A stretch of DNA of 64,000 nucleotides from Sulfurovum lithotrophicum (GTDB taxonomy: Bacteria > Campylobacterota > Campylobacteria > Campylobacterales > Sulfurovaceae). Positions 24,808-37,162 of the stretch are shown here, piece after piece (position 1 is the first letter of the stretch; each line of letters opens with the position of its first letter). The notes under the pieces are model-generated. The model was not told the DNA's origin, did no database searches, and worked only from the letters and a program-made list of their open reading frames with translations. The stretch covers positions 1,488,001 to 1,552,000 of the forward strand of contig NZ_CP011308.1 in the NCBI RefSeq assembly GCF_000987835.1. Reading direction: 5' to 3'. The position numbers were made by a program, and so were the translations under genes.

Positions 24808-26430
24808 TCAGTGTATCACCTTCAATCGTCCATCCACCGGCTTTGGATCCATAACTGTATGTTTTTCCAGATATCCTGCCATAACAGTATAGAATGTCGT
24901 ATAGGTATTCTTTTTGTCTGTACCGTACTGTTCAAACCAGAAGTAACCGTCTCCGGCATGAGTGACAAGATAAGCATTTGATAACACTTTATATACCTTG
25001 TCATCTTCCACAGGTGCCAGTGACCCGTCTGGCATGACGATACCTATATTGCTTACCCGCTCCCCTGCCTGCTCAATGCTCCATGAACCGTCATCATTAT
25101 GTTTGATCACCTGTGGCTGTTTACTGAGATCTATCGTATAGTGTATGCCGGAAACCTGCATCAACCCACCTCGCCCATAGGAAGCCGCGCTGTGCTCAAG
25201 TATCTGGCGCAGATATTTTCCTTCGATGTTCATCATATATGCATTGTTTGAAAATTCATCGATCTCATGAAGCATGGTATCGGTAATGTTACCCGGAGGA
25301 TAAACCTTTTTGCCTCTGAAAGCACCTCCATTGTTCATGACAATATCTACAGAAAACTTATCGCGCAACAGGTCATTTATCAGGTCGGCTACACTGGATT
25401 CACCTTTTCTCAATGCATCTGTCGTCAAGTCCCATTCAACGGTTGTTTTTCCCAAAATAACTGTTGCTGGCAATTGTGCTTTATAGGCTTCAAGTATTGC
25501 CTCTACTTTTTTATCTGCAGTGATAGGGTCAATGACAGGGATCAGAAAATATTCAGCCTCTTCTTTTTTGATACGATGATTGTTGTCAAGAGGAAGAAGC
25601 AATTTAAGCACATAGGATCCCTCTTCTCCGCCATTTACGATCAGTGTATCACCTACCCGAACCAGCTGTTTGGTCACTTCATGGGAGTGGCCTCCGAATA
25701 TTACATCGATACCTTCTACTTTTTGGGCAATTGATTTGTCCTGATCCAACCCTATATGTGTTACAGCTATAATGATATCACATTGTTCACCTTTCAGTAT
25801 TTCAACCATCTTCCTGGCCGATACAGTATTGTCAGCACTGAGCTTGACTTTTCCCGGGCTTGTAATAAGGGGAAGATCTTCAGTCATCAGAGAGAAAAAA
25901 CCTATTTTAGCACCATTGGCATTGACGATCTTATAGGGAATACACTTCCCTTCCAGTGCAGTACTTTCCACCATCAGGTCTGAACATATCGTATCAAACG
26001 AGGCATATTTCAAGGCATTGGCAAACACCTCTGTACCCTTGTCAAACTCATGATTACCAGGGGCATACACTCCATAGCCGCTTTCACTCATTAGCGAATA
26101 AATGGCTTTCCCCTTGAATGTATGAAAATACCGCCCCATCAGGTCATCTCCGCTTGAAAGAACAAAGGTACCGGAGGGGTTTTCTGATTTGGCCTGCTTT
26201 AGAACAGAGGCTATCCTGCTGATACCTCCGCCCATTATCTCCACTTTAGAGCCATTGATCTCGTATTCCTGTTCAAACGGTTCTATCAAACCCTGTATAT
26301 CAGCTGTTCCTACAATGGTAATTTGATCTTTCTGTGAAGTTGCAGAAGTAGATCCTGAAAAAGTGATATATGTAAGGAAAATAATTGAAAAAAAGAGCAT
26401 AAAATGTTGTTTTTGTTTTAATATGGGCAT
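24808..26430 (-). CDS. Secreted UshA-type 5'-nucleotidase / metallophosphatase
   Basis: About 540 residues with a signal peptide (MLFFSIIFLTYITFSGSTSA). The N-terminal metallophosphoesterase domain shows ADIQGLIEPF in place of the usual D-x-H, SSGDDLMG, APGNHEFDKG (GNHE), IAVTHIGLD and IFGGHSHE. The C-terminal 5'-nucleotidase domain includes NNGGAFRGKKVYPPGNIT and GDGYFWF. The start is taken as ATG 26430, since GAAAGGA lies 6 bases upstream around the SpoIIE stop; a TTG at 26445 is also in frame. It is the last gene of the partner-switching operon, an unusual neighbour for a nucleotidase. Confidence 0.88.
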   Translation of the reverse strand: MPILKQKQHFMLFFSIIFLTYITFSGSTSATSQKDQITIVGTADIQGLIEPFEQEYEINGSKVEIMGGGISRIASVLKQAKSENPSGTFVLSSGDDLMGRYFHTFKGKAIYSLMSESGYGVYAPGNHEFDKGTEVFANALKYASFDTICSDLMVESTALEGKCIPYKIVNANGAKIGFFSLMTEDLPLITSPGKVKLSADNTVSARKMVEILKGEQCDIIIAVTHIGLDQDKSIAQKVEGIDVIFGGHSHEVTKQLVRVGDTLIVNGGEEGSYVLKLLLPLDNNHRIKKEEAEYFLIPVIDPITADKKVEAILEAYKAQLPATVILGKTTVEWDLTTDALRKGESSVADLINDLLRDKFSVDIVMNNGGAFRGKKVYPPGNITDTMLHEIDEFSNNAYMMNIEGKYLRQILEHSAASYGRGGLMQVSGIHYTIDLSKQPQVIKHNDDGSWSIEQAGERVSNIGIVMPDGSLAPVEDDKVYKVLSNAYLVTHAGDGYFWFEQYGTDKKNTYTTFYTVMAGYLEKHTVMDPKPVDGRLKVIH

Positions 26431-26441
26431 GAATAGTCCTT

Positions 26442-28193
26442 TCAAGTTTCACCGATATTCTTTATAATCCTGAATTCCAAAATAGTAATATCATCATTTG
26501 GTGGATTGTTTTCGATAAATCCACCAATACTTTCCAATAAATATTTCAAACTGAATTCCCTCTCCAGACTTTTCGCCACCCTATCTATACCGAACATCTC
26601 CTGCTTACTGTTCTCTGCTTCCGTTACACCATCGGTAAAACAGATAAGCTGAAATGGATCTTTCATTGTCATGATATTGTTGTCATATACTGTATTACTA
26701 AAAGTATTAACAGGAGGATGGATATTACTGATGGGGGAAAACAACCGATCAGTTTTTACAATGAAGCCAGGGTGTCCTGCATTACAGAACGTCAATGTAT
26801 GTGTCTTGAAATCATATTTGATAACCAAAAGTGTAACGAACATGCCATTGCTGCTCATCTCCAAAAGCTTACTGTTTGTCAGGGTTATGATCTCTGCGGG
26901 GTCATCTGTTGTGTCGATTGCATTTTTCAAAAGTATCTGTGTCGCCATCATGAACAAAGCGGCAGGGATGCCTTTTCCGGAGACATCTCCAACATAGAAA
27001 ATGATACTCTTATCCAACTCTTTATAGCCATAAAGATCTCCTCCAACTTTTTTTGCCGCTTTTAAATATGAATGTAGCTCAAACCTGTCTGTTTCAATAT
27101 TTTTATGTACCGGCAAAAAACTCATTTGTATTTTTCTGGCCAGTTCGAGATCGTTCCTGAGCTTGGTTTTCTTTACGATATCTTTTTTAAATTGTTTCAA
27201 TATGATGAAGATCATCAGCAGTATGAGCAGAATGTCAATAATCACTATAACGATAAATTTTTGTTTAAGTTCAAAAAGTGACCGATACAAAAAAGCATTG
27301 TTCAGGAAAGTCATAATTTTAAAATCACTGTAAGGCATTGTCGAATAGTAAAGCGTAAATTCCTCATCCCCAATATTGACCGTATAAATACCTCTGTCTG
27401 TTTCAAGTATATGTGGAATTGCATTTAAAAGTGTCTCTGAATGTACATTTTTGGCATAGGTGATTGCAGTTTGTTTCATTGCATATTTATCATCGGGGTG
27501 AGAGAGTAAAAATCCGTTTTTATCCAATACAAATACAAAATGTTCTTTGGAAAATGTCATTTTTTGAATTTTTAGAGACAATACATCTATCTTTATATCT
27601 GCCGTTATAACCCCTGAAAAATGATCATACTTGTCTAACATGGGATAGGAAAAAGTACTCATAAAAACCTCCCCTCCTCCTTCGTCAAAATAAGGTTTGC
27701 TCCACTCACCTTTTTTTGACTCTCTGACTTTTGTATACCAGTTCTGATGAAGATAGTCATATGCCGGAGGCAACAGCCACTTTTCTTTGACTGTGGCATT
27801 GTTTTCATAATAGTATTTACAATAGAGCCCGTTTAATGAAGAGGAAGGGTCAATCGCCAGTGCACTTCCATATACATTCGGATTGTTTTTGACATGTTTT
27901 TTTAAAAAAGGTAAAACAGCTATGTATTCATGGGGGTGCAGCTTTAGCATATAGGAAGCTTCCTTGGTAAACGCAGAAGCATCTTCCAAATACTGTTTTA
28001 TTTCTGACATGATTTCAGTATTTATATGGGAGGCCTTCTGCTTCGCAGACCTTGTCAATTCACTGCCACCCACATCTTGAATAAAATACAACGAGAAGAG
28101 CAACAGTGGTATGGTAATGACTAAAATATAGAAAATAACTTTTTTCTGTATCCTGTCCAGTTTAAATCGTGAGTTTATAAATACTTTTGCCAT
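26442..28193 (-). CDS. Cache-domain membrane PP2C/SpoIIE-type phosphatase (RsbU-like)
   Basis: A 583-residue receptor phosphatase. Residues 18-38 form a first membrane helix; residues 45-290 are an extracytoplasmic double-Cache-like sensor (LLPPAYDYLHQNWYTKVRES, SGVITADIKIDVLSLKI, FVLDKNGFLLSHPDD); a second helix lies near 305-325; then comes a short helical linker and the SpoIIE domain with FELHSYLKAAKKVGGDLYGY, FYVGDVSGKGIPAALFM and ICFTDGVTEAEN, which hold the metal-binding aspartates. It should dephosphorylate the STAS antagonist encoded two genes upstream, in response to an external ligand. Confidence 0.92.
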   Translation of the reverse strand: MAKVFINSRFKLDRIQKKVIFYILVITIPLLLFSLYFIQDVGGSELTRSAKQKASHINTEIMSEIKQYLEDASAFTKEASYMLKLHPHEYIAVLPFLKKHVKNNPNVYGSALAIDPSSSLNGLYCKYYYENNATVKEKWLLPPAYDYLHQNWYTKVRESKKGEWSKPYFDEGGGEVFMSTFSYPMLDKYDHFSGVITADIKIDVLSLKIQKMTFSKEHFVFVLDKNGFLLSHPDDKYAMKQTAITYAKNVHSETLLNAIPHILETDRGIYTVNIGDEEFTLYYSTMPYSDFKIMTFLNNAFLYRSLFELKQKFIVIVIIDILLILLMIFIILKQFKKDIVKKTKLRNDLELARKIQMSFLPVHKNIETDRFELHSYLKAAKKVGGDLYGYKELDKSIIFYVGDVSGKGIPAALFMMATQILLKNAIDTTDDPAEIITLTNSKLLEMSSNGMFVTLLVIKYDFKTHTLTFCNAGHPGFIVKTDRLFSPISNIHPPVNTFSNTVYDNNIMTMKDPFQLICFTDGVTEAENSKQEMFGIDRVAKSLEREFSLKYLLESIGGFIENNPPNDDITILEFRIIKNIGET

Positions 28194-28518
28194 TTTGATG
28201 CCGGTAACTAAACGTTTCAGTCATTGACTCAACCAAAAACAGTCCCAGCCCTCCCTCTCGTAACTCTGCAATATCTTTTTGATCCGGTTTCTTTACAGTA
28301 AGGTCAAAACTATCAGACAGATACTCCAGATCTATCTCTATCTGTTTTGAATGCCTGATAGTCAATGAAAATTCCTTTGCCTCTGTATATTTGAACATAT
28401 TGGTTACCAACTCTTCGGTAACCAGCCTGACCTTATAGCACAGATCATCACTTAGTGTATGTTTCGCACAGAACTCTTCCAAATAACGATCAACTGCATC
28501 GATCGATGTGAAATTCAT
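28162..28518 (-). CDS. RsbW-like anti-sigma/switch HATPase kinase
   Basis: A short HATPase_c protein of 118 residues when started at ATG 28518 (MNFTSIDAVDRYL), which overlaps the STAS stop by 4 bases as ATGA; a longer frame to 28599 is open but would lie within the STAS gene. The N-box is RLVTEELVTNMFKY and the G-box is EGGLGLFLVESM with DFDLTVKKPD-like intermediate residues. Such proteins phosphorylate STAS antagonists and bind a sigma factor or another output. Its C-terminus overlaps the phosphatase gene start by 32 bases. No sigma factor gene is present in the window. Confidence 0.86.
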   Translation of the reverse strand: MNFTSIDAVDRYLEEFCAKHTLSDDLCYKVRLVTEELVTNMFKYTEAKEFSLTIRHSKQIEIDLEYLSDSFDLTVKKPDQKDIAELREGGLGLFLVESMTETFSYRHQNGKSIYKLTI

Positions 28519-28814
28519 TCTATCTCTTTTAAAAAAGTCAAAAAACCCGAGACTTGAAAAATCTCTTTTACCGTTCCGTGCGCTCCTTTTAAAAAACACT
28601 CTTTATCGTTCTCCTGTGCCAGTTTTGCACATTTCAGAATGACTTGCAGGCCTGCCGAACTGATATAGTCCAGATCACTGACATCGATCACAATATCACG
28701 ATCGATATCTACCAGCTTTTTATCTACGGTTTCTTTTGCCTCATCCGCATTCATGGCATCGAGCCTGTGACTCAAAATGACAAAAAAGCTCTCATCTTTT
28801 TGTATCTCTATCAT
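28515..28814 (-). CDS. STAS-domain anti-sigma factor antagonist (RsbV-like)
   Basis: A 99-residue single STAS domain. The phosphorylation loop is VIDVSDLDYISSAGLQVILKCAKLAQ, with the expected target serine in YISSAGL near residue 58. AAGGAAA lies about 7 bases before the ATG. It overlaps the GNAT-fusion stop by 4 bases and the HATPase start by 4 bases. It is the expected shared substrate of the HATPase kinase and the SpoIIE phosphatase of the operon. Confidence 0.9.
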   Translation of the reverse strand: MIEIQKDESFFVILSHRLDAMNADEAKETVDKKLVDIDRDIVIDVSDLDYISSAGLQVILKCAKLAQENDKECFLKGAHGTVKEIFQVSGFLTFLKEIE

Positions 28815-30250
28815 ACTGCTTTCCTTTTTTCATTTGAGATATACTCCACCAGTGCTTTGGCCCTGTCAGCATAGATCTCGACTTTTGACTCATCAATATC
28901 CTGAGGTAAAAACTCATACACCAGCACATCTTTACCCTCCACAAAAGAGGGCAGTATGCCGGAGAAGAAAAACTTTTCATCTTCCGCCTGCAAGACCAGT
29001 CTTTCAACATTCTGATCTTCTATGACGATATAAAGCAATATCACTTCCGCTTTCATCCTGAACAGAAGGTTGAAGAATGCTTCCTTGATATAACTTATAT
29101 TGTCTTTGCCTATCTCTGTGACAAAAATTGAACCTAGTTCAAAATTTGGAGCGTATGAACTTTTAACTATACCATTTTCTCTAAGATTGCATTCTTCCTT
29201 TTGAAATGAATAGTCCAGTTTCAAATCTCTATAGATCGCTTCTATCACCTCTCTATGTTTAGCCGGAACAGACAAAACCCTTTTTCTATTCTTCAGCGGC
29301 AGGTAGTAGTACATGCAGCTACCCCTTTGGGAAGAGTCGGCTTCAATCTTTTTGAATTTTTTTACAGGCGAAACACCAAAACCCATTCCTACAGGCACAG
29401 CACCGAGGGCTTCATTGGTTTTTTGGGAAAAAAGATGCACTGTCACAGGCTTGGACATAATACCTTCAAGCCCCAGTTCTTTGCCAATTTCCTGGGTTTT
29501 AACACGTATCTTTTTCATTAAGCCAAGCCCTCTGTACTTTGGCACTACAACTGCCTGTCCTATCTCCGCCACACTTCCGAGGTCTTCTCTTTCCAGCGCA
29601 TAATGCCCGGCGATCCTGTCTCTTTTTGTATCGTACGCAACGACCGAGACCAACTGCCCGCTTTCATTGAGCGAGATGATCCTCTCCGGGAAATAAAGAT
29701 CCTCATTGGGGTAACTGTATCCATACGCTTCATAAATAATCTGGGAGATCTCCATAGCCCATCTCTCTTCAAACTGTTTGATCACGATGTCATCGATGGA
29801 GGCTTCAAAATTCTCATCCTCTTCTGTTTCAGGCAGGGTGTATATCGCCTGCTGGGGCAGTTCAAAATAGAGTTTGAATTCCCTGCCCTCTTTTCCATGA
29901 TTAAGCCACTCAGCCTTATGACTGAATTTTTTAATCAGAAGCAACTCTAGTGTCTGAGTATCTATCGACTTGAGGCCATCTGCTGTTGTTTGGGGGAAAG
30001 TTATATCGATAGGCAAACCGCTGTCAATGAACGAGAGGATAAAGTATCTTTCACTGATCTCTATGGATATCTCTATATCACCCTCTTCATCCCTGTAGGA
30101 ATTCCGGAGTATATAGACAAATGCTTCTTCGGCACACAACTCGATCTTGTCCTGGATCTGCCGGACGTCAAAAACTTCACTGCTCACATTGACAAAGCTG
30201 TTCAGCAGGGGTAAAAACTTTTTATAGCTCGGGATGATCAATTTTAACAT
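28811..30250 (-). CDS. HATPase-GNAT fusion protein at head of partner-switching operon
   Basis: About 479 residues in three parts. Residues 1-135 form an RsbW-like HATPase_c domain (KIELCAEEAFVYILRNSYRD as N-box, LSFIDSGLPID). Residues 150-330 form a GNAT acetyltransferase domain with the acetyl-CoA loop in QAVVVPKYRGLGLMKKI. The last 150 residues form a second alpha/beta domain without a family I recognise. The start is ATG 30250 with AAGGTGG about 7 bases upstream; an upstream TTG at 30295 is less likely. Fusing a switch kinase to an acetyltransferase suggests that acetylation of a target is the output; the target is unknown. Confidence 0.82.
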   Translation of the reverse strand: MLKLIIPSYKKFLPLLNSFVNVSSEVFDVRQIQDKIELCAEEAFVYILRNSYRDEEGDIEISIEISERYFILSFIDSGLPIDITFPQTTADGLKSIDTQTLELLLIKKFSHKAEWLNHGKEGREFKLYFELPQQAIYTLPETEEDENFEASIDDIVIKQFEERWAMEISQIIYEAYGYSYPNEDLYFPERIISLNESGQLVSVVAYDTKRDRIAGHYALEREDLGSVAEIGQAVVVPKYRGLGLMKKIRVKTQEIGKELGLEGIMSKPVTVHLFSQKTNEALGAVPVGMGFGVSPVKKFKKIEADSSQRGSCMYYYLPLKNRKRVLSVPAKHREVIEAIYRDLKLDYSFQKEECNLRENGIVKSSYAPNFELGSIFVTEIGKDNISYIKEAFFNLLFRMKAEVILLYIVIEDQNVERLVLQAEDEKFFFSGILPSFVEGKDVLVYEFLPQDIDESKVEIYADRAKALVEYISNEKRKAV

Positions 30251-30376: not shown

Positions 30377-31000
30377 TCAATCACCCTTTATCCCTTCAAA
30401 AAAATAGCGATGCATCCATACAGCGGTCATGATGCCGACAAAGGCGCCAAACAGCACATCACTGGGATAATGTGCGGTCACAACCACCCGGCTTGCGCCG
30501 ACCATCAATGCAAGAAACATAAAAAGAGGCATAGTGTGTTTATACAAAAACCCTAAAGCGGTAAAAAAAGAAAATGCTCTTATGGTATGATCGGACGGTG
30601 TAGAGTTCAATACCCATTTTGTAGTAAAAAAGTGCAACCCGTATTCACCATGTTCAAAGAACATTATGGGCCTGTAACGCCCAAGCAGATACTTGAATCC
30701 CTCACCTATCATAATGGCAACAGTGACAGTAATAATGATATAAAAAAGTTTTTTTGTGCTTTTTTTCCTTATGCCCGGATCAACGATGACGATATATCCA
30801 AAAGCACACAAAAGAGCAATATTGACATAGAGCAATGAAGCCAGTACCGAGATCTGCTTCCCAATCGATTCTGCTGCTTTACCCAGCATATGGTGATGCA
30901 TCCAAAGATCGATATTTCTATCGAAAAATAGAAACAGGATCACATAAAGTGCAGCCGTTGCAAGTGTGGTGTAAATAATTTTTTCTCTTGTGTTTTTCAT
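30377..31000 (-). CDS. PAP2-family membrane phosphatase
   Basis: A 207-residue protein with about five membrane helices and the three PAP2 motifs: KYLLGRYRP (K-x6-RP, near residue 105), STPSDHTIRAFSF (PSGH-equivalent, with S-D-H, near residue 135) and SRVVVTAHYPSDVLFGAFVG (SR-x5-H-x3-D, near residue 170). The family dephosphorylates lipid phosphates such as phosphatidic acid, lipid A or undecaprenyl pyrophosphate; the substrate is not clear. It stands apart from its neighbours. Confidence 0.87.
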   Translation of the reverse strand: MKNTREKIIYTTLATAALYVILFLFFDRNIDLWMHHHMLGKAAESIGKQISVLASLLYVNIALLCAFGYIVIVDPGIRKKSTKKLFYIIITVTVAIMIGEGFKYLLGRYRPIMFFEHGEYGLHFFTTKWVLNSTPSDHTIRAFSFFTALGFLYKHTMPLFMFLALMVGASRVVVTAHYPSDVLFGAFVGIMTAVWMHRYFFEGIKGD

Positions 31001-31083: not shown

Positions 31084-32367
31084 CTACAAGAAGAAAAAAA
31101 GAAGAATAGCAATTCCCGCCAAGGCTATCATTCCCTTGCTGATCTCTTGCATCTCTCCATTCATTACTTTCACTGCTACATAGACCAAAGCTCCAAGCAT
31201 CAAACCATCCGTGATCGAATAGGTCATGGGCATCCCCAGGACGGTAAAGAAAGTACTGTACTGCATAGCCGGATCATCGTAGTTGATGGAGCGCAATTCG
31301 GAGAACATCATCGTACCTACCAGTATCAGAACCGGGTAGATGGCGAAGGAGGGAATGGCTTTGAAGAACGGCAAGGCAAACAGGGGCAGGATGAACAGCA
31401 GCGCCGTCACCAATGCCGTCAGTCCGGTACGGCCTCCTGCTTCTACTCCGGCGGCACTCTCGATGAACGGTGTTGTGCTGGTCACCCCGGCAAAACCACT
31501 TAGAAAGGTTCCTGCCGCATCAGCTTCAATACTCTTTTCAAGTGCCACAGAGCGTTTCCCTTCGAAAAGCCCGGCCCTCAGGCCAAGCCCCGTCAATGTT
31601 CCTATCGTATCGAAGATATCGGTAATCAGGAAGGTTAGCAGTACCGGAACCATCGACAACTTCAGCACCTCCATGATATCCATTTTGAACAGAATGGGAG
31701 ACATCGATGCCGGCATGGAAATAAAACTTTTGGGCAACTCAGAAATACCCAGCAGCCATGCCAACACTGTCGTAGCCGCGATAGAGACAATGAAAGCGCC
31801 CTGCACCTTTCGCAACAGCAGAAACAGTGCCAGAAGCAGGGAAAATATCCCCATCAGTACCGGTGCCTCATTTAGCTTCCCGAGTGTGACCAGTGTCGCA
31901 TCACTCTTGACGATGATATGCAGCTGTTCCAGCCCGATAAATGAAATAAACGCACCGATACCCGCACTGACAGCCCGCTTGAAATCCATCGGCATCGTCT
32001 CGATGAGCCAGCGCCGAAGCGGGGTCATTGTCACCAATACATACAGCGTACTGGAGACCACTTCCACACCCAGCGCCGTCTGCCAGGTCATCCCCATTCC
32101 TTTGACCAATCCAAAAGTGAAGAAGGCATTGAGTCCCATCCCGACACTCATGGCTACAGGGGTATTGGACCAGAAAGCATTGATAAGTGTGGCAAGAATC
32201 GTCATTACTGCCGTTGCGGTCACCAAAGCATCATAAGGTATATCCGCTTCACTCATGATGGCTGCATTGACCGGAATGATGTAGAGCATGGCAAGAAACG
32301 TACTGACTCCGGCTATCACTTCTGTTTTAACATCAGTTCCATGCTCTTTGAGTTTGAAAAATCCCAT
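31084..32367 (-). CDS. NCS2 purine permease, AzgA/guanine-hypoxanthine type
   Basis: A 427-residue membrane protein with 12 or more hydrophobic segments. Features of the AzgA clade are TEVIAGVSTFLAMLYIIPVN at the start, SVGMGLNAFFTFGLVKGMG, and FLSGFAGVTSTTPFIESAAGVEAGGRTGLTAL. It should import adenine, hypoxanthine or guanine by proton symport. It starts 2 bases after the adenine deaminase stop, with AGGAGAT upstream, so uptake and deamination of adenine form one unit. Confidence 0.92.
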   Translation of the reverse strand: MGFFKLKEHGTDVKTEVIAGVSTFLAMLYIIPVNAAIMSEADIPYDALVTATAVMTILATLINAFWSNTPVAMSVGMGLNAFFTFGLVKGMGMTWQTALGVEVVSSTLYVLVTMTPLRRWLIETMPMDFKRAVSAGIGAFISFIGLEQLHIIVKSDATLVTLGKLNEAPVLMGIFSLLLALFLLLRKVQGAFIVSIAATTVLAWLLGISELPKSFISMPASMSPILFKMDIMEVLKLSMVPVLLTFLITDIFDTIGTLTGLGLRAGLFEGKRSVALEKSIEADAAGTFLSGFAGVTSTTPFIESAAGVEAGGRTGLTALVTALLFILPLFALPFFKAIPSFAIYPVLILVGTMMFSELRSINYDDPAMQYSTFFTVLGMPMTYSITDGLMLGALVYVAVKVMNGEMQEISKGMIALAGIAILLFFFL

Positions 32368-32369
32368 AT

Positions 32370-33971
32370 CTATCTCCTGCAGGAATCTATAAAATGAAAG
32401 CTGCGTCCATCAAACAACCCTTTGTCGCTTAGTTTGAGTTCAGGAATGACCAGAAGTGCCATGAAAGAGAGTGTCATGAAAGGTGCGCTTAGAGGCGAAG
32501 CGAAATCTTCCCGTACCATCCTGTCAAGATCAGCGTAACGATTTGCCACTTCAAAACCGTCTTTGTCACTCATTAACCCCGCAATCGGAAGACTCAGAAC
32601 TTCAATTTCTTCTTCTGTTACTGCACAGATCCCGCCCCGGTTCCCGATGATTGTATTGACCGCTTTGGCGATGAGCGTATCACTGCACCCTACCGCAATG
32701 ATATTGTGAGAATCATGCGCCACACTTGAGGCAATGGCACCTTTCTTGAGACCGAACCCATGCACGTACGCTACAGCCGGCTTTGCATCTTCATAACGGT
32801 TGACCACCGTGATCTTCAGTATATCTTCGGCTTTTCCTGAAGCGGCATTGACGATCTCCTCCTCTGTCATCAGTGAGTGGTCAATGGCATGGATCACTTC
32901 CGTCTGTGCACACCAATCTAAAGCAAATTCTTTTGCTTGTTTCAATCCAGTATGAAAATGGTTGGGAGTTTCCACAGTAACGGAATCGATCAGCGGTTTC
33001 TTTCCTCTGGCGACGATCTCTCCATCGATAACCGTTTGAAGGACATTAAAATCTTTCAGGTCTTCTACTACAATGAAATCAGCCGCATCCCCAAGTCTCA
33101 GCAACCCGACTTCAAGCCCGTAATGCTCAACAGGATTGACCGAAGCGATCTTGAGCACATCAAAGAGGTCATACCCTTTGGCGACCGCCCGTCTGACATG
33201 CCCGTCAATGTGCTCTCTGGCAAGATCATTGGGATGCCGATCGTCTGAACAGAACATCAGTTTGTCCGGATAGTCGGGAATGAGCGGTGCAAGCGCTTCA
33301 AAATTCTTGGCTGCCGAACCTTCCCTAATCAGTATCTTCATCCCCTTCTGCAGCTTTTCCAGCCCCTCTTCATAACTGAATGCTTCATGGTCAGTCTCAA
33401 TACCTGCCTCAATATATTTCGTCAGCGCATCCCCCCTCAGTCCCGGGGCATGTCCGTCAATGCGTTTATGCAGTGTTTTTGCCTTTGCGATCTTGGCAAG
33501 CATATCAGGGTCACCGTTGATCACACCGGGAAAATTCATCACTTCGGAAAGATACTTGATCTGCGGCATTTTCAACAGGCTTTCTACCTCGTCGGCTCCC
33601 AGTGTCGCACCGCTGGTCTCGAATGTTGTAGCTGGCACACAGGGAGAAGCGCCAAAATAGAATTTGAACGGTGTCATTTCACTGTTGTCCCGCATATATT
33701 TAACACCCGGAATACCAAGAACATTGGCGATCTCATGCGGATCTGACATGGTAGCAACCGTACCGTGACAGACGGCAAGACGCGCAAATTCACTGGGAGG
33801 AAGCATAGAGCTCTCGATGTGTATGTGCGCATCAACAAATCCGGGAAGTATGTAGGTATCACAAGGTGTATCAATTCTTTCTACGGAAGCGATCTTTCCT
33901 TTTTCAACTCTGACCTTTGCAGGGAATATCTCCCGTTTGAAAATATCTACATAATTGCTTTTAATCTCCAT
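32370..33971 (-). CDS. ade: Adenine deaminase
   Basis: Ade hydrolyses adenine to hypoxanthine and ammonia. The 533-residue amidohydrolase shows PGFVDAHIHIESSMLPPSEFAR (HxH metal site near residue 48), HGTVATMSDPHEIANVLG, KRIDGHAPGL, GIETDHEAFSYEE and MFCSDDRHPNDL, plus the C-terminal ade-specific part HDSHNIIAVG and the NRGGICAV region. The length is that of bacterial ade. It precedes the purine permease with 2 bases between them. AAGGAGAG lies just before the ATG. Confidence 0.96.
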   Translation of the reverse strand: MEIKSNYVDIFKREIFPAKVRVEKGKIASVERIDTPCDTYILPGFVDAHIHIESSMLPPSEFARLAVCHGTVATMSDPHEIANVLGIPGVKYMRDNSEMTPFKFYFGASPCVPATTFETSGATLGADEVESLLKMPQIKYLSEVMNFPGVINGDPDMLAKIAKAKTLHKRIDGHAPGLRGDALTKYIEAGIETDHEAFSYEEGLEKLQKGMKILIREGSAAKNFEALAPLIPDYPDKLMFCSDDRHPNDLAREHIDGHVRRAVAKGYDLFDVLKIASVNPVEHYGLEVGLLRLGDAADFIVVEDLKDFNVLQTVIDGEIVARGKKPLIDSVTVETPNHFHTGLKQAKEFALDWCAQTEVIHAIDHSLMTEEEIVNAASGKAEDILKITVVNRYEDAKPAVAYVHGFGLKKGAIASSVAHDSHNIIAVGCSDTLIAKAVNTIIGNRGGICAVTEEEIEVLSLPIAGLMSDKDGFEVANRYADLDRMVREDFASPLSAPFMTLSFMALLVIPELKLSDKGLFDGRSFHFIDSCRR

Positions 33972-36367: not shown

Positions 36368-37162
36368 CTATTTCCAGTACGTATCCAGACGAACGTTCCA
36401 CCCTCTTCTCCAACGTTCTTCACCCCGCGCAGGAGGAGAGTTCTTTATGCGGCGGGAGAGCATCGCTTTGGCGGAGTCGGCAAAGGCTTTATATTTGTTT
36501 GGATTCTTCTCGTCAAGATGTTCCAGCACCTGAAACAGTCCCCAACCCTGCCCTTTGTAGCGTTCGATCTTGAGCGTTCCTTCTCCTTTGAAGTTGGTGT
36601 AGTCAAGCAGGATGTAGAGCCCTCTTTCATCTATCTTTCCGTTCTTTTTGTAGAGCATATGGTTGAAGCGGCGTTCTATCATCACTGCTTTTTTCGGGTC
36701 TTTTATTGTGCCAAGCATCTGGGGAAGTGCCTGTTTGAGGCGTTCTGTCATAAACTCTGCCTGTTGGGGCATGGTTCGCTTGAGGAAAGAAAAAAGTTCC
36801 GTGTACCGTTTCGTTTTTTGCTTTTTGGCCACAAAGAATTCAGCCTTTGTCTGCCAGGGGAGATCAGTATTTGGGTTCAGCCACTTTGGCATCTGCACAC
36901 CCTTTTTCTGCATAAAAGCCACCACCATCGGGAACACTTCCCTGAAACGCTCAGTATGTCCTTTGGGAAACCAGATGAAATGCCCTATGCCAAGCGAAGC
37001 AAAATCCTCACCTTTGTTCCACCAGACAAGGTACTTGTCCTTGCCCGCCCCTTCATTCTGCCATACTTTTTTGGCTATGTAGTCTGCCTGCTGCTTTGTC
37101 AGATGGATCTCCGAAGAAAAAAGAGCCGTGGTTAACAAATAGATAAACAGTACCGTTCTCAT
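36368..37162 (-). CDS. Secreted protein of unknown function
   Basis: A 264-residue protein with a signal peptide (FIYLLTTALFSSEI). The N-terminal part has KKVWQNEGAGKDKYLVWWNKGEDFASLGIGHFIWFPKGH spread over residues 31-70, a striking, strongly conserved-looking segment rich in W, E, D and H that may form an active site. The rest is helical with many lysines and arginines. I have seen similar hypothetical proteins described only as unknown; a peptidoglycan or glycan-hydrolase-like role is speculation. It stands between the TRAP gene and a divergent META gene. Confidence 0.75.
   Translation of the reverse strand: MRTVLFIYLLTTALFSSEIHLTKQQADYIAKKVWQNEGAGKDKYLVWWNKGEDFASLGIGHFIWFPKGHTERFREVFPMVVAFMQKKGVQMPKWLNPNTDLPWQTKAEFFVAKKQKTKRYTELFSFLKRTMPQQAEFMTERLKQALPQMLGTIKDPKKAVMIERRFNHMLYKKNGKIDERGLYILLDYTNFKGEGTLKIERYKGQGWGLFQVLEHLDEKNPNKYKAFADSAKAMLSRRIKNSPPARGEERWRRGWNVRLDTYWK

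Follow-up and report, generated by a model that had tools for sequence, protein, structure and literature searches.

A probable sigma-less partner-switching module with a candidate acetyltransferase output in Sulfurovum lithotrophicum

Partner switches and the locus

The RsbU/P-RsbV-RsbW (SigB) and SpoIIE-SpoIIAA-SpoIIAB systems combine a SpoIIE phosphatase, a STAS protein with a phospho-serine and an RsbW-type kinase, and the locus described here has counterparts of all three, that of the kinase being a candidate. Unlike those systems, it has no cognate sigma factor, and the same operon encodes a second RsbW-like domain, with the fold of RsbW/SpoIIAB, fused to a GNAT acetyltransferase. SiaABCD of Pseudomonas aeruginosa resembles the locus in having four genes: a membrane PP2C phosphatase, a kinase and a phospho-switch protein act there on an enzyme that responds to protein contact (PMC7647112, PMC8457831). 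The output of SiaABCD is a diguanylate cyclase (GGDEF), whereas here it would be the RsbW-GNAT fusion; a profile search of the operon found no GGDEF domain, its switch protein belongs to the STAS and not the SiaC type, and the phosphatase reaches 41.8 bits for similarity to SiaA, against a cut-off of 700. SypA/SypE, BtrUVW, RbaVW and HmpUVW of Gram-negative bacteria and cyanobacteria likewise have non-sigma or unassigned outputs, but none is described with an acetyltransferase partner in PMC8256260. We found no partner switch with a GNAT output in the open literature, which does not prove that there is none. The fusion architecture itself is shared with M20-linked RsbW-GNAT proteins of Campylobacterota, including a paralogue in this genome; these differ in forming a two-gene locus with an M20 peptidase, with an intact N-box and no STAS, kinase or SpoIIE gene nearby.

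The outputs of many Gram-negative partner switches are not known, and this locus offers a candidate: an enzyme that carries a putative dock for STAS and is encoded at each of the switch-linked loci that we found. If this is true, an acetyltransferase can be under the direct control of an Rsb-type switch, with no transcriptional step, and the paralogous family linked to M20, widespread in Campylobacterota, poses a second question within reach of work on purified proteins.

A four-gene operon and the parts of the proposed switch

The window, a stretch of 64,000 nucleotides, spans positions 1488001-1552000 of a single-contig genome of 2,217,891 bases (G000). Its relevant features, in window positions, are the following.

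30377..31000, minus strand: PAP2-family phosphatase, 126 bp upstream of FUS (profile match)
28811..30250, minus strand: FUS, RsbW/SpoIIAB-like and GNAT fusion, probable output protein (Pfam, profile search against PDB, AlphaFold)
28515..28814, minus strand: STAS, RsbV/SpoIIAA-like switch protein (profile match and alignment)
28162..28518, minus strand: HATP, RsbW-type kinase candidate (profile match; ATGA overlap with STAS)
26442..28193, minus strand: SPOIIE, dCache and SpoIIE/PP2C phosphatase (profile match and motif residues)
24808..26430, minus strand: UshA-like secreted 5'-nucleotidase family protein, adjoining here (profile match)

An earlier note on this DNA had described five ORFs encoding HATPase-GNAT, STAS, HATPase, Cache-SpoIIE and UshA-type proteins; all are present on the minus strand and Pfam confirms their domains. 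It had also counted four translational overlaps, of which we retain three: FUS and STAS share 4 nt, STAS and HATP another 4 nt (the HATP ATG lies over the STAS stop), and HATP and SPOIIE 32 nt. FUS starts at the ATG at 30250, preceded by the SD-like AAGGTGG, and HATP at the ATG at 28518 rather than the GTG of the ORF-finder list. The fourth join, between SPOIIE and the nucleotidase, needs a TTG start. The likeliest start of the nucleotidase is ATG 26430, with AAGGA upstream, and its ortholog in a close relative (G024) begins near the equivalent site; since this ATG lies 11 nt past the SpoIIE stop, there is no overlap and the overlapping joins are three. The unit is four genes (FUS, STAS, HATP and SPOIIE; 26442-30250), not five. 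The joins had been taken to argue for a single complex or pathway; a four-gene partner switch with the fusion as its probable output is supported, with the nucleotidase outside it.

Ser53 of STAS, invariant in the alignment, lines up with Ser58, the phosphorylated residue of SpoIIAA. HATP keeps the N-box Glu/Asn and the G2 box, and its DxG box is degenerate. SPOIIE matches the SpoIIE profile with 129.9 bits and keeps the GGD, DxSGKG, DG and DD motifs; it also has an extracytoplasmic dCache domain flanked by two hydrophobic segments. A second SpoIIE protein, with a weaker match, is encoded elsewhere in the genome. A defence-system reading was dropped, as PADLOC gave no match.

The fusion protein and its family

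Profile search and the predicted structure (AlphaFold, mean pLDDT 85.9) give FUS a clear RsbW-type fold and a clear GNAT fold. Its 494-aa frame divides into an RsbW/SpoIIAB-like domain (~15-147), a GNAT domain (168-340) and a C-terminal GNAT-half-like part (~375-465). In Pfam terms HATPase_c_2 falls slightly under its cut-off (26.4 versus 27.4 bits) and Acetyltransf_1 just over (21.3 versus 20.7), while the profile search against PDB matches RsbW at 4e-14. The best solved structure for the N-terminal domain is UsfX-RsfB (Z 16.4, rmsd 2.1, 119 aligned), followed closely by RsbW-RsbV (Z 16.1, rmsd 2.0, 113 aligned) and SpoIIAB-SpoIIAA (Z 15.9, rmsd 2.8, 127 aligned); anti-sigma factors (Z 15-16), several of them solved with their STAS partner, outrank histidine kinases here. 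The C-terminal part gives a confident model when folded alone (pLDDT 87); its only GNAT likeness, a weak one, is to their second half (Z ~8), level with Nudix and antizyme rows, so that a GNAT-half-like fold is a tentative assignment.

In the window strain the N-terminal domain is unlikely to act as a kinase, because the Asn of its Mg-ATP N-box is replaced by Tyr61. The same Tyr is found in G024, and Phe in an MFS-linked pair of fusions (L033/L034), while the three fusions from a second genus retain Asn; the residue is lost in four of the seven switch-linked members and present in 35/35 M20-linked RsbW-like domains. Such a loss (4/7 against 0/35) would be expected of a passive dock next to a separate kinase. 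It is not general, since three switch-linked proteins keep the Asn.

What recurs across genomes is the four-gene set and not the five-gene order. The set occurs at seven loci including this one: four in the same genus (G000, G024, G009 and G012) and three in a second genus (G297, G464 and G449). SpoIIE is present in 6/7, and in the seventh, G449, the contig ends inside a SpoIIE-like N-terminus. In G000 and G024 the order is PAP2-FUS-STAS-HATP-SpoIIE with a Cache-SpoIIE as input; the block from PAP2 through SpoIIE (30999-26478) aligns unbroken between the two at 94% DNA identity, and the PAP2 gene, common to this block, is absent beside the other four-gene sets. In G009 FUS-MFS diverges from STAS-HATP-SpoIIE, and G012 has REC-SpoIIE-HATPase, STAS, FUS and an MFS transporter. 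Another order is LuxE-LuxC/AMP-PaaK-FUS-STAS-HATP-SpoIIE, into which G464 has a Trp/Tyr permease gene inserted, and a Cache-HAMP-SpoIIE goes with the LuxE-LuxC-PaaK or Trp/Tyr permease loci. The four-part set thus persists while sensor input and neighbours vary.

Co-occurrence of FUS with switch genes is strong. By profile searches, switch-linked loci carry STAS and HATPase genes in 7/7 and an M20 peptidase in 0/7, and the remaining loci of the family carry an M20 peptidase in 80/83 and switch genes in 0/83 (90 fusion loci in total, some genomes being counted twice because they are in two collections). Of the three loci that lack both, L082 runs into a contig end and L101 is truncated on one side, which leaves L116 as a genuine exception. 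All 200 bootstrap trees place the seven switch-linked proteins on the same side of one branch (support 76/88), a moderate value for the subfamily that they form.

A match to the FUS query was found in 36/397 genomes of the phylum sample. An alignment-based scan returned only loci titled as Campylobacterota lineages, many of them Sulfurovum (one titled 'bacterium'), and coverage beyond the phylum consists of two plasmid matches; a family-wide scan with a single FUS protein as query found nothing, and no occurrence was found in phages. The paralogue in this genome (C1:283302-284777) is M20-linked; a premature TGA stop suspected in this second copy was rejected, its ORF being full length (495 aa). 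An RsbW-GNAT fusion paired with M20, with an intact ATP box and no switch genes, is seen at L029 (8285-9772) and in its kin, in ~80 loci Campylobacterota-wide.

GNAT-only forms (~340 aa) without the RsbW-like domain also occur beside M20, which argues that the GNAT is the effector part of FUS. They were considered as the ancestral form and rejected: in the tree they branch within the M20-linked fusions, which makes loss of the RsbW-like domain the likelier course.

What the switch may control

We consider it probable, though by no means certain, that the four genes at 26442-30250 make up a partner switch that has no sigma factor and acts on an enzyme. Wherever we found the switch, an acetyltransferase fused to an anti-sigma-like domain accompanies it, so that direct control of this enzyme, and not of gene reading, is its probable role. 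An extracytoplasmic ligand would bind the dCache domain and set the activity of the SpoIIE phosphatase, which together with the kinase HATP would determine whether Ser53 of STAS is phosphorylated. In its unphosphorylated form STAS would exchange between HATP and the RsbW-like domain of FUS, its proposed dock, turning the fused GNAT on or off, and the GNAT would most likely acylate a small amine or amino-acid-like molecule. The analysis shows the domains, the folds, the key residues, the overlaps between the genes and the joint occurrence of the parts at seven loci. We infer docking of STAS on FUS from fold and linkage only, and the direction of the switch, the GNAT substrate and the Cache ligand are likewise what we infer. 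A more specific account, which we hold tentatively, is that the place of the sigma factor has been taken by an RsbW-like domain deficient in ATP binding and fused to a metabolic acetyltransferase, that STAS phosphorylation gates the enzyme directly and that its origin was an ancestral M20-linked RsbW-GNAT enzyme.

Protein acetylation by the fusion, switched by STAS phosphorylation, had been suggested as the output. The fusion as probable output stands, while protein targets are weakened. The GNAT fold is intact, residues 168-340 match solved GNATs with Z ~14, and RimI and Ard1, which are protein N-terminal acetyltransferases, are among the top fold matches, as expected if FUS acetylated lysines or N-termini of target proteins; small-molecule GNATs, however, match equally well. 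The neighbours of the GNAT family (M20 amidohydrolase/peptidase, the acyl-activating and acyl-reducing LuxE-LuxC-PaaK enzymes, Trp/Tyr permease) suit a metabolite substrate, and because they point to small-molecule acylation we regard a small molecule as the more likely acceptor and protein targets as rather unlikely. Two plasmids carry related GNAT genes. A Salmonella plasmid (L130, CP054717.1 105717-111475) has an operon LuxE - LuxC/AMP-binding - PaaK - GNAT, whose enzyme genes match those beside the fusion in G297/G464. On a plasmid of Candidatus Thiodictyon syntrophicum (L131, NZ_CP020371.1) a GNAT homologue without the RsbW-like domain adjoins divergent HATPase and SpoIIE genes, and slightly beyond them lies a STAS gene.

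FUS might instead be a scaffold or pseudo-enzyme, its GNAT fold sensing CoA or another ligand while the real output is another STAS partner; to this we give about the same low probability as to protein targets. STAS targets of non-sigma partner switches are often not known (PMC8256260), and in L033/L034 the acetyl-CoA loop is degenerate, its glycine replaced by Arg, so that the GNAT may be inactive there and its activity may not be the output of that pair. The window protein argues the other way. Its loop reads R255-G-L-G258-L-M against the consensus R/Q-x-x-G-x-G/A, with Met at the last position instead of G/A, and the loop and the conserved GNAT residues E244, H287 and Q291 are kept in it and in four other members; by sequence, the GNAT of FUS looks intact.

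Somewhat less probable still is a switch that remains transcriptional, with HATP (or FUS) binding RpoD, STAS freeing it and FUS as a side branch. According to PMC4552016, an Rsb network acting on the primary sigma factor (sigma66) is reported or proposed in Chlamydia, and one RpoD-type protein is present in this genome. The claim that there is no sigma factor is true at the locus; genome-wide, the sole Sigma70_r2 protein (a 622-aa frame remote from the operon) is one sigma-70. The module contains neither a cognate alternative sigma factor nor a transcription regulator, and FUS is linked to STAS and HATPase genes in 7/7 loci, while a switch acting on a sigma factor only would not need it. A partner-switching module without an alternative sigma factor is supported, and control of RpoD is conceivable. 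The genome has one free-standing STAS, two further STAS matches being parts of a 530-aa and a 375-aa frame; its RsbW-like proteins above cut-off, besides HATP, are FUS, the M20-linked paralogue and one 620-aa protein. With a single sigma-70 as well, the set is nearly closed in this genome, a point in favour of the enzyme-output reading.

The nucleotidase and the Cache ligand

The secreted nucleotidase had been counted as a member of the system and a nucleotide or its product (nucleoside, phosphate) as the signal; neither proposal held up. In G024 the nucleotidase (93% protein identity) lies 24 kb downstream of the operon, past transposase-like remnants whose type was judged by eye; in G015 an 80% identical nucleotidase occurs without the operon, the only fusion there being M20-linked, and the gene is absent from the remaining four-gene sets. 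Because these genomes separate the two, the nucleotidase is probably a neighbour in this strain and not a conserved part, and it was rejected as a fifth member.

The Cache domain departs from the published purine motif (dCache_1PU, McpH Y121-R129-W140-F167-D169), mapped here through printed PctC/PctA-type alignments and not McpH itself, in having Thr, not Phe, two before the conserved Asp; a purine-sensing Cache was rejected on this basis, and the nucleotide-signal idea is left unsupported. It also departs from the amino-acid motif (dCache_1AA, PctA Y121-R126-W128-Y144-D173): the Tyr, Trp-Tyr, Tyr and Asp positions are kept, and the carboxylate-binding Arg is Gln. The betaine receptor PacA also has Gln at that position (PMC10104139), a weak lead, by analogy, towards an amine as the ligand. 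A five-gene pathway in which the nucleotidase yields a nucleoside seen by the Cache domain is thus very improbable, given its separate occurrence and the purine motif, even though the nucleotidase directly follows in this strain and an adenine deaminase and purine permease lie upstream.

The deaminase and permease genes (window positions 31084-33971) adjoin each other in G024 too, but ~13 kb upstream of the operon there. Elsewhere in the window, a 264-aa ORF without a Pfam match (36371-37162) adjoins a TRAP transporter gene. The genome also encodes a second UshA-like nucleotidase (C1:1665709-1667262), which shares 51% identity with the window's nucleotidase.
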